From: a virus
Strand: one strand, 5' to 3'
IMG/VR virus record: IMGVR_UViG_3300019873_000003
Location: 1-38,313 of that record
Length of the DNA stretch: 38,313 nt
Below are positions 4,816 through 33,493 of the stretch, piece by piece; positions within the stretch are counted from its first letter, which is position 1, and each line of letters starts with the position of its first letter. The translations under genes were made by a program, and so were the position numbers. The notes under the pieces are model-generated. The model had not been told where the DNA came from. It worked only from the letters and a program-made list of their open reading frames with translations, and ran no database searches.

Positions 4816-7800
4816 ATGGACGAAAAGAAACTGGACAAACTAAATAAACTTCTGGAAATCATGAAGGATGATGTGGTTTCACCTGCGGAAATCCAGAAAT
4901 TTCTCACCGTAGTTTTACAATTTATTACAAAGTCAAAAACTGAATTTCAAAATCTTTCACAAGAGAATCTGCAAAAAATAGACCAAGCCCTTAATAAAAT
5001 AGAACAAGACCACAAAGCTAATCTAGCCAGTGTTTCACAAGTAACATCCGAAACGGAGAAAAACATCACGACTGAATTTAACGCAAGAATAAAGGAAATC
5101 AAATCCTTGATGGAGGAAACTTTACTAAAAAAGCCAAAAGACGGACTTGATGCCCCTCCTGCGGATGAAAACAAAATTATAGAAAGTGTCATAGAAAAAC
5201 TACCAAAACATAAAGATGTAATTCTTGATAGTGGTGAAGAAATAAAAGTTAAACTAGAAATCTTAAAAGGAGAAGATAGACTTGACGCTTCAGCTATCAA
5301 GAATCTTCCTAAAGGCAAAGGTTTTTTTGGAGGCACAATGGGTATAAAAGAGATTGTCGCAGGAACTAATATCACTGTGGACAATACCAATTTAGGTTAT
5401 CCTGTAATAAACTCAACGGGTGGCGGCACACCAGGCGGTTCAAACACCCAAGTCCAATTTAACGATAGCGGAGCTTTTGGAGGCGATTCTGGCTTGGTCT
5501 ATAACAAACTTACCAAGACTTTAGGTATTGGACCGAATGTTACAGCAGACGCTCTATTTGGCTTGACCATAAGAGGATATGGCGGGGACGGAGAGTCCGG
5601 TATCAAGTTAGTCAATAGTGATTTTGGCAACTGGTCAATCAAAAATGGCGCAGGTTTTCAAACAAGCCTTTCTTTTTTTAGTGAAATTCTGAATGACGAT
5701 ACTTTCTCAATCGTGGTAGATCTTAATAATAATGTTCAAATCGGAGTCAAGAATATAAGTCCGACTGCTTCATTGCACTTGCCGGCTGTGGGAACAGGAG
5801 CTTCAACTGCGCCGCTTAAACTGACTCTTGGAGGAACTCTGATGACTACACCGGAGGCAGGGGCAATAGAAGCTATCAACACTCACTTGTACTGGACTAG
5901 CAGTGCTGGCACTAGATTTCAATTAGACCAACAAGGTAGCGGAGGTGGCGAAACACTAGCTCAAACTCTAGTGCTAGGTAATGCCACAGGCGGAACTTCA
6001 ATCACAATGACTTCTGGAGACAAGATTTTGAGTCCTAGCGGGGCGGGAGCGATTGTAGTTGAGGACACATTTCTTGACCTCTCAACCGATAGTGGCGTTC
6101 ACTCAACTCCCTACATTCGCATAGACACTACTTCTATCGGCTTGAACATTCCCTCTGGTGTGGGTCTTATTTATGCCAACGCCAGCAGTGCTTTACTCTC
6201 ACATACCACACTCATAAACTTTATTTCTCCTGCTGTCAGGTTTAGTTCTCTCACTGCCAGCACTGTGCCTTATCTAGACGCTTCTAAAAATCTAGTTTCA
6301 AGTGCTGTAACCCCGACACAATTAAGTTACCTTGACGCGACTAGTTCAATCCAAACACAAATAAACGCTTTGACTAGCGGTTTGGGAAGTTATCTGCCTT
6401 TAGCAGGCGGAACAATGACTGGGGATATTAAAATGGCGGCTAACAAGCTGATTACTTCCGCTAACGGCACTAGTATAGCTTTGGTTCTAAATAATTCATA
6501 CCTAAAACTTTCAACTGACGCTGACACTGACGATACTTCCTATCTTCAATTCACTCCCACTTCTTTTCAACTTAATCAAAAAGCTGGCGGTTCTCTAGTC
6601 TCCACCATTGATGTCAATTCAACTCGGATGTTTATTGCAGGCACTATCATTGAACTCGCCAGTCCTGTTAAATTAAGCCAAGTAGTAGGCACAGGAGCAG
6701 GCACAGCACCGCTTAAATTCGTTCTAGGCGGAACGCTAATGACCGCTCCCGAAGCTGGTGCGGTAGAAGCCACTAACACTCACCTTTATTGGACAAGCAG
6801 TGCAGGGACAAGGTATCAACTAGACCAACAGGGAGGAGGTGCAGGAACACTCTCGGCAACACTAGCTCTAGGCAATACGACAGGCGGACACAATATCGTA
6901 ATGACAGCAGGAGACTTCATTAAAAGTCCGAGTGGAACAGGCAGTGCTATTTCAGTGGAAGATTCTCTCTTAACACTCTCTAGCGATGGCGGAGTCAATA
7001 CCACTCCGCACATCTTTTTGGATGCTGGAGCTGTTTCCATTTATCAAGCGGCTAGTCGGGTAATCATCATGGATGCTTCTCATATTTCCATTAACGACCC
7101 GGCTCAAATACAATTCGTTGCTCCAGCGTATAATTTTAATTCTCTGACTCCTTCACAAATAGCGGCATTTGATGGAAGCAGTAATCTAGTTTCTCTCGCT
7201 GTGGCAACCTATCCTTCTCTCACCGAACTTTCGTATGTCAAAGGAGTTACTTCGGCTATCCAAACTCAATTAGGCACTTTGACTACTTCAGTTGCGGCTA
7301 AACTTCCTCTAGCAGGCGGAATAATGGTTGGGGATATTTATATGACCTCCAACAAGATTATTGGAGGTTCTACAACTACTTCTGACTTGTATTTGCAGAC
7401 TACCTCTGCTGTGGGAGCAACTGGTGCAGATATGCACTTTCTAGTGGGGAGCAACGGAGGGACGGAAGCGATGACGATTTTGAATAGCGGGTTCGTTGGT
7501 ATAGGAACGATAGCACCAAATACCAAGTTTCACGTTGAAAATAATGCAAACAGTAATACAGCTTTAGAAATTGTTAATACAACGAGCGGAACTTTGGCTC
7601 AAGAAACTATTTATTTATCACAACTTGTAAATCCAGGGACAACTTGTGGACAACTATCCCACTTTAATACGAGTTTTACGGCATCTGGGGTTTACCAACC
7701 AAACAGTACTATTCTTTTAAGTGCGGACACAGGCGGTTTATGGCTGGGAGCAAGCGATGGTGCAGGGAAAATTCATCTATTTACAGGAGGAGTAGCGGCG

Positions 7801-12767: not shown

Positions 12768-12806
12768 GGAGGTCAATCTAGCGGTGTGTTCCATACTACC
12801 ACCGCT
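12763..12806 (+). other. Tandem hairpins before a terminator
   Basis: GCTAG (12763-12767) pairs with CTAGC (12778-12782), with GGAGG in the loop. GCGGTG (12781-12786) pairs with CACCGC (12800-12805). The two hairpins share two bases, so they may be alternatives. They lead directly into the terminator stem at 12807. Confidence 0.45.
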
Positions 12807-12856
12807 CCCGCCTTATGCTTGCCCCATTAACTTGGGAGAGTAAAGGCGGGTTTTTT
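12807..12856 (+). terminator. Intrinsic terminator with branched loop
   Basis: CCCGCCTT (12807-12814) pairs with AAGGCGGG (12843-12850) and is followed by TTTTTT. The loop contains a smaller CCCA/TGGG hairpin. It ends transcription of the zinc-finger gene pair. Confidence 0.8.
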
Positions 12857-12873: not shown

Positions 12874-12879
12874 TATAAT
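12874..12879 (+). promoter_or_regulatory. -10 box (TATAAT)
   Basis: A consensus -10 hexamer 18 bases after the terminator T-run, in a non-coding stretch. A good -35 box is missing. It would start a transcript near 12886 that reads through the structured region to the HNH gene. Confidence 0.4.
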
Positions 12880-12885
12880 GACCTA

Positions 12886-13151
12886 GCACTCATTTTTTAA
12901 TTTGGATGAGCGCATCATTTTAAGAATCTTCAGTTTCATTTCTTCTGAAAGATTCTGCCGAGTTCACGAGCCGACCTTGCGAATTCGGTGAAGCGTGGCT
13001 GAACAAACTCCCTTGAATACGGAGTTAAGGCATTGGTGAAATATCCGAAGGGGTAAAGTAGTCAAGTTGGAAGTACTAAGATTAAAAAATTTAGTATTCA
13101 CTTTCTTGGGGAATTTTATTCTAGATACAAAATAAATTCCTCCGCTTCACC
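12886..13151 (+). ncRNA. Large structured RNA candidate upstream of an HNH gene
   Basis: No plausible gene lies in these 266 bases, but paired segments are dense: CTCAT/ATGAG (12889-12910); AGAATCTTCAG (12923-12933) with CTGAAAGATTCT (12945-12956, one bulge); CCGAGTTC (12958-12965) with GAATTCGG (12981-12988); AACTCC/GGAGTT (13006-13026); and AGTACTAA with TTAGTATT just after 13070. A long-range closing stem joins GGTGAAGCG (12987-12995) to CGCTTCACC (13043+100, i.e. 13143-13151). This looks like a folded multi-branch RNA. An HNH gene follows 53 bases later. Candidate classes are a group I-like element or an endonuclease-associated RNA. I could not find the conserved group I core, so the class is left open. 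Confidence 0.55.
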
Positions 13152-13169
13152 AAGTTTGTAAAATTAGTG

Positions 13170-13198
13170 TTGTAAATTAAAAAGATTTATGCTATATT
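13170..13198 (+). promoter_or_regulatory. Promoter of the HNH gene (TTGTAA-17-TATATT, extended -10)
   Basis: A -35 box TTGTAA (13170-13175), exactly 17 bases, then TGC-TATATT (13190-13198). The ATG at 13205 is 6 bases past the -10 box, so the transcript is probably leaderless. Confidence 0.65.
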
Positions 13199-13204
13199 AT
13201 AATT

Positions 13205-13639
13205 ATGGCATATAACAAAAAACATCAAATTGATTATTATCGAAGAAACATAGAAGAAATAAAAGAAAAACGGAGGAAATATTATTTACTTAACAAAAAA
13301 GCATTTAGAAAGAGACAATTAAAATATAAAGAAAAAGGATTAACTGTAAAATGGGCAAAAGAATGGGTTAAAAATCATAAAGAAAAAGTAAGAATTCAAT
13401 CAAATGAATGGAGAAGACAAAGGAGGCAACGGGTGATAGAAAAATTAGGAGGAAAATGTATTATATGTGGACATAATAATACAAGACATTTGGAAACTGA
13501 TAGAATAAAAGGGGGTAGACATTCAACAAGTTATGTTTTCACACATACGGAAGAATTTCAGATTTTATGTGCAAATCACCACAGTGAAAAAACTCTGTAT
13601 GGTAGTATAATATACGAGGGGAAAGAATATATCTTTTAA
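13205..13639 (+). CDS. HNH endonuclease-like protein, possibly catalytically altered
   Basis: 144 residues, very Lys/Arg-rich. The basic helical N-terminal half probably binds DNA. The C-terminal half is an HNH fold: CIICGH (about 86-91), RHLETDRI, then CANHH. In most relatives the central motif reads 'LxIDHI'; here the catalytic His position appears to be Arg (TDRI), so nuclease activity is doubtful. The gene is more AT-rich than its neighbours, stands alone behind its own promoter and follows a structured RNA, all typical of a mobile homing-endonuclease unit. Confidence 0.75.
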   Translation: MAYNKKHQIDYYRRNIEEIKEKRRKYYLLNKKAFRKRQLKYKEKGLTVKWAKEWVKNHKEKVRIQSNEWRRQRRQRVIEKLGGKCIICGHNNTRHLETDRIKGGRHSTSYVFTHTEEFQILCANHHSEKTLYGSIIYEGKEYIF

Positions 13640-20129: not shown

Positions 20130-20195
20130 GCTGTAAAGTGACCACAGAGGGGTAAAAAGGCACATTTAAGCCATTTTTTGCCAAAATTCAACATT

Positions 20196-20654
20196 ATGCC
20201 TAGAATTGACTACAAAAACTACATAAGGCAATATAACAATATCACCCAAGCTGGTGCAAAAAATGGTGATTACCCTTGTTTTTATTGCGGTGTGCCCTCT
20301 AATTCAGTGGATCATTTCGTGCCCCAATCCTATCTTTCAATTATTCGTATGTTTCTTGATACTACTCCCGAAGGAAATGAGAAAGTAAAAAATGTCTATG
20401 AAAAAACAATTTTGAGTCAAGAGTTAATACCGGCATGCCGAGACTGTAATAGTCGGGCAAGTGATGGTGTATTCGACACCCCAGATGATAAGAAGTCTTT
20501 CGTAAAGGCGAAATTGCGAAAGAAATTTGAAAGAATTTTAGAACTTCCATACTGGAGCGACGGCGACATTAAAGAATTAGATTACGAACTACAACAGACA
20601 GTTTTGGGTGCTATTAGTCAGAAGAATCACATAGAGAAAAGATTAAAATGGTAA
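20196..20654 (+). CDS. HNH endonuclease
   Basis: 152 residues from the ATG at 20196; a TTG at 20178 is in frame. CFYCG (about 27-31), SVDHFVPQSYL with the DH catalytic pair (about 37-38), and CRDCNSR later make a complete HNH zinc fold. It is placed between the SSB-like gene and a small helical gene, with about 65 non-coding bases before it. This could be a homing endonuclease or a phage DNA-processing enzyme. Confidence 0.75.
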   Translation: MPRIDYKNYIRQYNNITQAGAKNGDYPCFYCGVPSNSVDHFVPQSYLSIIRMFLDTTPEGNEKVKNVYEKTILSQELIPACRDCNSRASDGVFDTPDDKKSFVKAKLRKKFERILELPYWSDGDIKELDYELQQTVLGAISQKNHIEKRLKW

Positions 20655-20993: not shown

Positions 20994-21161
20994 ATGGAAA
21001 AGAAATACAACAAAATTCCCGCATTTAATCCCCACAACCACTGTGTGGGGCATTCCGTGTATATGTTAGATTGTGAATATCAAGAAGAGGCGGAACGCAA
21101 ATTATTATCAGAAGTAATCTCTCGCTACATTGAAACGGACAAAGTTGCGCAAGAAAAGTAA
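20994..21161 (+). CDS. Small protein upstream of NinG, unknown
   Basis: 55 residues with an N-terminal His/Cys-containing stretch (FNPHNHCVGHSVYMLDC) that could bind metal, then an acidic helix. It overlaps the NinG gene start. Translational coupling suggests it is made together with NinG. Confidence 0.45.
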   Translation: MEKKYNKIPAFNPHNHCVGHSVYMLDCEYQEEAERKLLSEVISRYIETDKVAQEK

Positions 21162-21513
21162 GCAGAAGATTCCGATTCTCAAAAGAAAACTCTGGAAAGT
21201 ATTTTCTGATTACATTAAGAAGAGGGATAAAAACATTTGTTTCACTTGTTCACGAAGATGTGAAGGTAGCGGGGCGCACGCCGGACATTTCATTCCAAAA
21301 AGTGTCGGTGGACTTGCTTTATACTTTGATGAAGACAATGTTCATACGCAATGCTTTAACTGCAACATCAATCTTTCCGGCAACCAATACATTTACGGAA
21401 TAAAGCTCGGCGAAGAAAAAGTAATTATGCTAAACATTCTAAAAACCGCCTATACAAAATGGAACGCTGAAGTATATTTAGAGAAAATTAATCATTACAA
21501 GAAATTATTATGA
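21130..21513 (+). CDS. ninG: NinG/Rap-like recombination protein
   Basis: 127 residues. CFTCSRRCEGSGAHAGHFIP (about 38-57) and DNVHTQCFNCNINLSGNQY carry the cysteine and His pattern of the lambda NinG (Rap) family, which cuts branched DNA such as Holliday junctions and D-loops. The start is a TTG at 21130, since no ATG is available before the conserved region. It overlaps the preceding small gene by 32 bases. It fits a recombination role together with the SSB-like protein. Confidence 0.85.
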   Translation: MKRTKLRKKSKQKIPILKRKLWKVFSDYIKKRDKNICFTCSRRCEGSGAHAGHFIPKSVGGLALYFDEDNVHTQCFNCNINLSGNQYIYGIKLGEEKVIMLNILKTAYTKWNAEVYLEKINHYKKLL

Positions 21514-31301: not shown

Positions 31302-31925
31302 ATGCCTTCAGGGGTCTATAAGAATAGAAAAAATGTAGGTTATTGGTTAGGTAAAAAAAGACCTCATCTATCATATCAAGCAAAGAAAAAATTATCTCTT
31401 TTTTGGAGAGGTAAGAAAAAACCTCCTTTTACAGAAGAACATAGAAAAAAAATAGGTGAGAATAGTCGCAAAAGGATAGGACAACTACATCCACAATGGA
31501 AAGGCGGTAAAGAAAGATTCAAATGTATTGATTGTAAAATAATTATTGCAAATGCTTACGCTAAAAGGTGTCGTAGGTGCGATAGTGAATTAAGAAAAGG
31601 GGAAAAGTGTAATTTTTGGAAGGGTGGAGTTACCCCTGTGAATCATAGGATAAGAACCTCTCGTGAATATCGTCTATGGAGAGAAGCAGTATTTAAGAGA
31701 GATAACTGGACTTGTGTTTGGTGTGGAGCAAGAGGCAAAATAAATGCTGACCACATAAAACCTTTTGCATATTTTCCCGAATTTCGCTTTGCGATAGATA
31801 ATGGAAGAACTCTCTGTATAGAGTGTCATAGAAAAACTGATACTTGGGGAAATCGTGCTTTAGTCAATAACTATAAAGTAGAAAGAAAAAAAACTGGTGA
31901 GAACATTAACAGAATTAACTACTGA
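31302..31925 (+). CDS. HNH homing endonuclease with NUMOD3-like motifs
   Basis: 207 residues. Two repeated DNA-contact motifs of the NUMOD3 type lie near the N-terminus (GKKRPHLSYQAKKKLS, GKKKPPFTEEHRKKIGENS). A zinc cluster follows (CIDCKI, CRRC), then the HNH core (CVWCGARGKINADHIKPF, with the DH pair, and CIECHRK). This layout is typical of free-standing phage homing endonucleases. The gene is AT-rich, has its own promoter and sits between scaffold and capsid genes, where such elements often insert. Confidence 0.85.
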   Translation: MPSGVYKNRKNVGYWLGKKRPHLSYQAKKKLSLFWRGKKKPPFTEEHRKKIGENSRKRIGQLHPQWKGGKERFKCIDCKIIIANAYAKRCRRCDSELRKGEKCNFWKGGVTPVNHRIRTSREYRLWREAVFKRDNWTCVWCGARGKINADHIKPFAYFPEFRFAIDNGRTLCIECHRKTDTWGNRALVNNYKVERKKTGENINRINY

Positions 31926-32875: not shown

Positions 32876-33493
32876 ATGCCATATAAAGACCCAATAAAAG
32901 CTAGAGAGGCAAGTCGTAAGTCTTCATTGAAGTATTATTACAACCACACGCCTACTCCTGAACAGGAAGCAAGAAAAAAGATTGCTCGCAAAGCGTGGGA
33001 AATTAAAAATGCTTCAAAACTTTCCGACTACCAACACAAAAGATGGTTACGAGATAAAGATAAGATGAGTCTGCGTAAGAAAAATTACAAAATGAATAAT
33101 GAGGAAAAAGTTTCTCAACAAAAGAAAAATTCTTATCAGAAATATAGGGAGCAAATACTTTCAAGACCTAGTTTCAAACTTTACGGATATAAAAAATCTG
33201 CTAAAGAAAGAGGATATGAATTTAATCTTTCGACAGAAGACTTTAACAAATTATTGCTAGAGAATTGTCATTACTGTGGGAAAGAAAAATCTAATGGTGT
33301 AGACAGGAAAGAGAATAGTCTAGGATATTTTGCTGAAAATGTAGTTCCTTGTTGTAAAACTTGTAATTTTATGAAACGAGATTTGTCTTATCGAGAGTTC
33401 AAAGAACACATTAAGAAAATTCATTCTCATTTAGTCAATGAGAAAAATCTCCTTTCGGGGAGATTCGAGCATAGAGTTTTTCTCACCAGTTAA
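32876..33493 (+). CDS. HNH homing endonuclease
   Basis: 205 residues. The N-terminal half is very basic, with long helices (DNA binding). The HNH core has CHYCGK, NGVDRKENSLGY, the CCKTCNFMK zinc cluster and a final helix, as in many free-standing phage endonucleases. The gene has its own leaderless promoter and its 3' end runs close to the next head gene. Together with the endonuclease at 31302 it brackets the capsid gene. Confidence 0.8.
   Translation: MPYKDPIKAREASRKSSLKYYYNHTPTPEQEARKKIARKAWEIKNASKLSDYQHKRWLRDKDKMSLRKKNYKMNNEEKVSQQKKNSYQKYREQILSRPSFKLYGYKKSAKERGYEFNLSTEDFNKLLLENCHYCGKEKSNGVDRKENSLGYFAENVVPCCKTCNFMKRDLSYREFKEHIKKIHSHLVNEKNLLSGRFEHRVFLTS

Follow-up and report, generated by a model that had tools for sequence, protein, structure and literature searches.

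The manA RNA (Rfam RF01745) was found in marine metagenomes, cyanophages and two gamma-proteobacteria, and it was classed as a cis-regulatory element, possibly a riboswitch (Weinberg et al. 2010, PMC2864571). It often adjoins tRNAs and shows a weak link to the tRNA model (PMC3692125), and it is also present in cyanophage S-CREM1 (PMC9964418). Our literature search found no paper on the function of manA, on copies in Streptomyces phages or on a link between manA and HNH genes. The other described systems to be considered are the HEARO and OMEGA RNAs of IscB, which share with the locus studied here the position of a structured RNA 5' of an HNH gene.

The folded RNA and its surroundings

We have analysed a viral DNA of 38,313 nucleotides (IMG/VR record IMGVR_UViG_3300019873_000003, hereafter the window), in which a stretch at 12886-13151 precedes an HNH endonuclease gene. 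The features of this locus, all on the + strand, are the following:

12807..12856 (+), intrinsic terminator just 5' of the RNA: CCCGCCTT (12807-12814) pairs with AAGGCGGG (12843-12850) and is followed by T6; read directly from the sequence
12874..12879 (+), -10 box TATAAT with a poor -35 box, predicted start near 12886; assigned by analogy with the 5' promoters of relatives
12886..12957 (+), 5' extension absent from classic manA, including a hairpin (about 12923-12956); from the fold
12958..12988 (+), P1 hairpin: 12958-12965/12981-12988, inner pairs 12967-12970/12976-12979; from the fold
12972..13152 (+), manA-like RNA domain: RF01745 model positions 1-192, 26.5 bits
12987..12995 (+), 5' strand of the closing stem P2, partner 13143-13151
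12998..13031 (+), conserved core GC-UGAACAA-(P3 hairpin)-UAAG-GC; from the Rfam alignment and comparison with relatives
12998-12999/13030-13031 (+), two-pair mini-helix: G-C, C-G in the window and A-U, C-G in classic manA
13007-13011/13021-13025 (+), P3 hairpin ACUCC/GGAGU inside the core
13042..13055 (+), short middle hairpin UAUCC-GAAG-GGGUA; read from the sequence
13073..13097 (+), P7-like hairpin; from the fold
13108..13142 (+), P8-like hairpin abutting P2: 13108-13116/13134-13142; from the fold and relatives
13143..13151 (+), 3' strand of P2
13205..13639 (+), AT-rich HNH endonuclease gene, 144 aa; from the ORF list and matches to PHROG and phage proteins

The first-pass annotation had described 266 non-coding bases closed by a long-range stem of nine pairs, and both points hold: the ORF list places no ORF of at least 50 aa inside 12886-13151, and GGTGAAGCG (12987-12995) pairs perfectly with CGCTTCACC (13143-13151). 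The predicted fold of 12980-13160 reaches -49.2 kcal/mol (z=-3.80), with none of 200 dinucleotide shuffles as good, and that of 12886-13200 reaches -81.1 kcal/mol (z=-3.95), with none of 100 as good. Since the fold beats all the shuffles and relatives carry compensatory changes, we consider that the window contains a real structured RNA. The terminator at 12807-12856 was missing from the terminator scan output because its loop is longer than the limit of the scan. A perfect 7-pair hairpin (AGCGGTG/CACCGCT) lies directly 5' of it, at 12780-12806. This terminator followed by TATAAT makes the start signal before the RNA clearer than the one before the HNH gene, with a weak -35 box in it; directly 3' of the RNA there is no terminator in the window.

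Relationship to manA

The RNA had been presented as unclassified and possibly a new class, with an Rfam scan proposed as a check. The scan returned nothing in the window at the gathering threshold, which for RF01745 is a curated score of 55.2 bits; on an E-value threshold, it returned a full-length RF01745 match at 12972-13152, with 26.5 bits and E=1.2e-4 when 1 kb was compared with all families, and E=1.1e-6 when the whole record was compared with RF01745 alone. The alignment spans model positions 1-192 with both ends included, and RF01745 gives no second match anywhere else in the window. Thus, instead of representing a new class, the window holds a distant, sub-threshold relative of manA.

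Both RNAs are located in phages, are about 180 nt long and have the same order of helices: a 5' hairpin, the closing stem, the two-pair mini-helix, a hairpin beside the core and a terminal hairpin abutting the closing stem. They share the core GUGRCUGAAYAAACU...UUAAGGY, and its GUG(A/G)CUGAAYAAACU...UUAAGG part is found in the window at 12995-13030; classic manA reads GUGACUGAAUAAACUU...UUAAGGUGAUG and the window GUGGCUGAACAAACU...GUUAAGGCAUUGG. The closing stem, the mini-helix, P3 and P8 are all paired in the window and show double changes with respect to relatives. The P1 hairpin of the window may be homologous to that of manA, given that both lie directly 5' of P2, a placement taken from the predicted fold of the window that differs from the one set by the Rfam alignment. 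Unlike manA, the window RNA has a longer closing stem (9 pairs), an extra 5' segment and a score below the threshold, no sign of a cyanophage was seen, and its multi-hairpin middle domain is shrunk: the three hairpins of manA are not found there, and the short hairpin at 13042-13055 appears to occupy their place.

As a control, the pattern CTGAAYAAACT-N-TAAGG retrieved 80 viral records, 29 of them with manA above the cut-off. Beyond those 29, a single record reached E<=0.1, with 7.4 bits, most of the 80 carrying the pattern by chance. Because records that have only the pattern score almost nothing, the RF01745 score of the window reflects more than the short core. Judged by sequence and predicted structure, the element is a divergent member of the manA class or a close relative of it.

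Relatives in other phages

Core patterns derived from the window variant retrieved sub-threshold relatives in phage contigs, scoring 31-45 bits: 45.4 for L200, 42.0 for L188, L190 and L199, 38.7 for L164, and 31.7-33.1 for L189 and L195. The nearest to the window RNA is L164, from an uncultivated phage, whose closing stem has 16 pairs (UUUAAAAUCUGAAGCG/CGCUUCAGAUUUUAAA; fold z -4.33). Like the window, it has the TGAAGCGTGGCTGAAYAAACT 5' part, an identical CGCTTCA 3' strand and the G-C/C-G mini-helix, and the two outer closing pairs, G-C and G-C in the window, are U-A and C-G in L164, a compensatory change. Unlike the window, it has no HNH gene, and its surroundings are phage genes, with a short ORF of the same direction close upstream. 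Across 13 sequences, double changes in P2, P3 and P8 are numerous and above almost all shuffles; these shuffles ignore relatedness, and the strands and pairs of P8 were chosen by eye, so that its statistic is flattering. The MAFFT alignment of distant copies is poor in the middle domain, and blastn of the window RNA against phages gave short matches only (E>=0.6).

The core pattern in genome contigs identified one real manA, in a Prochlorococcus record (L159); two other matches, L160 and L161, gave no manA score and were discarded. A possibly more distant branch is formed by L162 (near 3734) and L193 (near 34), tentative cases with the core GGCTGAATAARCTGCTACGCA-GGTTAAGGYAC and either 12.3 bits or no score; in L162, a probable major capsid gene and then a terminator directly precede the core. 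In addition, the phage contig L179 has a manA-like core with a long insert (5416-5714, - strand, 29.3 bits) and L180 is likewise manA-like; in both, a tmRNA gene follows shortly after the core, with tRNA genes nearby.

Several cultured Streptomyces phages (Blueeyedbeauty, Faust, Sham, TunaTartare and others) carry an RNA with the same architecture as that of the window. In Blueeyedbeauty (NC_048720.1), positions 65412-65569 (L201:2913-3070) match the full RF01745 model with 45.2 bits and E=1.0e-11; the annotation of this record does not name the RNA. It begins 4 nt after tRNA-Gln, which ends at 65407, and its end is the first base of tRNA-Trp (65569). Eleven records of related phages carry it at 86-100% identity, and it adjoins a tRNA in all five of the Streptomyces phage genomes that we opened. 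Among four aligned variants, P2, the mini-helix and further stems differ in a compensatory manner. These copies differ from the window RNA in their GC-rich core (CGGAACGCC...GGUAACGC) and in their location between tRNA genes, which suggests that the RNA works as a free-standing molecule. A gene for a Ro-like RNA-binding protein is found about 2.5 kb downstream of the RNA in Blueeyedbeauty.

Genomic context of the manA-like loci

We have collected 64 distinct manA-like loci (68 for the promoter count), which are related and were chosen with our own patterns, so that the counts are not independent. The RNA usually lies between two genes, at a short distance from each, and annotated cyanophages have one copy each. 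The flanking genes are very varied, including major capsid protein, pstS, regA and ferredoxin genes on the 5' side and, on the 3' side, a T4-type single-strand-binding protein gene (repeatedly), transaldolase, purine genes and many unknowns. A promoter matching at least 10 of 12 positions was found at the 5' end of the RNA in 45/68 loci (1.15 in shuffles), and for most of these promoters some 27-39 nt separate the -10 box from the core. There is a terminator directly 5' of the RNA in 28 of the 64 loci, and the window, with its terminator, TATAAT box and RNA, repeats this common order. In cyanophage loci such as L020, L081 and L102, the terminator, 60-30 nt before the core, overlaps the promoter, and in many cyanophages its loop holds the -35 box TTGACA. 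Directly 3' of the RNA, 9/64 loci have a terminator, compared with 0.4 in shuffles; L173, of classic manA type (172 bits), has a terminator behind the RNA and then a predicted ORF in the opposite orientation. L189 and L198 show a gap of 600-900 nt before any further ORF is predicted in the orientation of the RNA.

Proposed role of the RNA

We propose, with a probability of roughly 0.6, that the window encodes a divergent manA-type RNA that acts in trans as a free-standing phage RNA. A stand-alone RNA is favoured over a system of RNA plus endonuclease because of its position in tRNA arrays, its own promoter, its own terminator in some copies and its varied neighbours. Transcription would start near 12886, from the promoter behind the terminator, and the transcript would fold into P1 followed by P2, with the conserved core and four arms (P3, the middle hairpin, P7 and P8) held inside P2. 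The RNA would then act in trans, perhaps also after release from longer transcripts in a tRNA-like manner, and, as a guess, the invariant core CUGAAYAAACU...UUAAGG might dock on either a protein or the translation machinery. Read-through into the following gene, here HNH, would be incidental. The score under the gathering threshold, the reduced middle domain, the weak -35 box and the missing 3' terminator in the window are points against this reading.

The strongest alternative, which we nevertheless regard as unlikely, is that the RNA is a riboswitch-like leader at the 5' end of an mRNA, controlling in this case the HNH gene. Rfam types manA as Cis-reg, and the original description rates it as cis-regulatory and a probable riboswitch (PMC2864571). 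The leader model stays alive because in 55/58 loci the gene that follows has the same direction as the RNA, often at 30-60 nt from it, and because the T4-type ssb genes recur as neighbours, both of which fit a 5' leader; in addition, the window and the ssb-type loci have the same spacing between core and start codon (208 nt and about 196-212, respectively). However, different phages have unrelated genes downstream, some copies are closed by a terminator of their own, others sit inside arrays with tRNAs on both sides, and the predicted fold of the window leaves the HNH start region unpaired with the RNA. The cis-regulatory label of the manA class is, in our opinion, doubtful.

Much less probable is a portable 5' stabiliser or insulator, in which a promoter, a 5'-terminal hairpin and a compact fold would protect strongly expressed phage transcripts. 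The promoter start at the P1 hairpin, and the terminator that shields the preceding gene in many cyanophages, agree with it; yet such a device has no need for an invariant single-stranded core, and the copies in tRNA arrays are not at the 5' end of an mRNA. We give slightly less credit still to a different class of RNA that has converged on the same short core, as the different middle domain and the sub-threshold score could suggest, since this conflicts with the full-length match to the model, the continuous series of intermediates and the same order of P1, P2, mini-helix, P3 and P8.

The neighbouring HNH gene

With its start at 13205, the HNH ORF lies 53 bases past 13151; its 144-aa product matches PHROG HNH families (best 2.5e-7) and phage HNH endonucleases (best 2e-10), with no Pfam match. 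The first-pass annotation had credited this gene with its own promoter, and the candidate TTGTAA-17-TATATT matches 9 of 12 positions and ends at 13198, 7 nt before the ATG; comparable matches in this AT-rich region number 9, with 4.5 +/- 2.1 expected by chance, and the promoter is unproven. The GC content of the gene is 22-34%, compared with about 40% around it, which fits a mobile gene; it is a separate gene of the next interval, and probably a mobile one. Direct repeats around the RNA and the gene are weak and AT-rich, none of them convincing as the ends of an insert.

A motif search that recognises the gene of the window found an HNH ORF within 2.6 kb of the RNA in 1/64 loci, the window alone, and the closest phage HNH homologue checked (Blueeyedbeauty 2352-2690) is about 63 kb from the manA-like RNA of that phage. 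These two observations, like the varied, unrelated neighbours, lend no support to the functional link between RNA and HNH gene that had been suggested. Further HNH-like genes occur in the window at 20178-20654, 21130-21513, 31302-31925 and 32876-33493. One of the four is NinG-like, and the last was named from its residues, Pfam giving no HNH match for it; at least three are of HNH type, and none of the four has a manA-like RNA. Considering the single locus in 64, the mobile-type AT-rich gene and the other HNH genes of the window, the adjacency is probably incidental, HNH being a neighbour and not a partner. The HNH protein as bait found no relatives in viral contigs; a search for syntenic phages with a ParB-like protein encoded nearby was equally negative, and thus no HNH-free sister genome was obtained.

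Even with an HNH gene 53 nt downstream in the window and another about 180 nt upstream in Streptomyces phages, beyond tRNA-Gln, a mobile or guide system of RNA plus HNH, be it HEARO/OMEGA-like or the degenerate intron that the annotation had ventured (group I, with its endonuclease), is the least credible reading and very improbable, since Rfam gives no match to group I introns, HEARO or OMEGA at E<=10, the HNH proteins of the window and of the Streptomyces phages are dissimilar (E=61), no IscB/IsrB-type protein was found downstream but a tiny one matching phage HNH families only, and the pairing of RNA and gene is not conserved.

Significance

Since 2010, the manA of marine phages has been listed as probably cis-regulatory, a label that is now in question. 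The window, the sub-threshold relatives and the unannotated Streptomyces phage copies stretch the family well past cyanophages and reveal a diversity that is at present hidden by the Rfam threshold. The cultured Streptomyces phages provide isolates with a genome sequence where the RNA can be knocked out. Tentatively, and with less confidence than in the reading of the window itself, manA could be the marine tip of a wide superfamily of phage RNAs, free-standing instead of serving as leaders for particular genes, with their own promoter and sometimes placed in tRNA arrays, which would act in trans on the translation or RNA machinery of the host.
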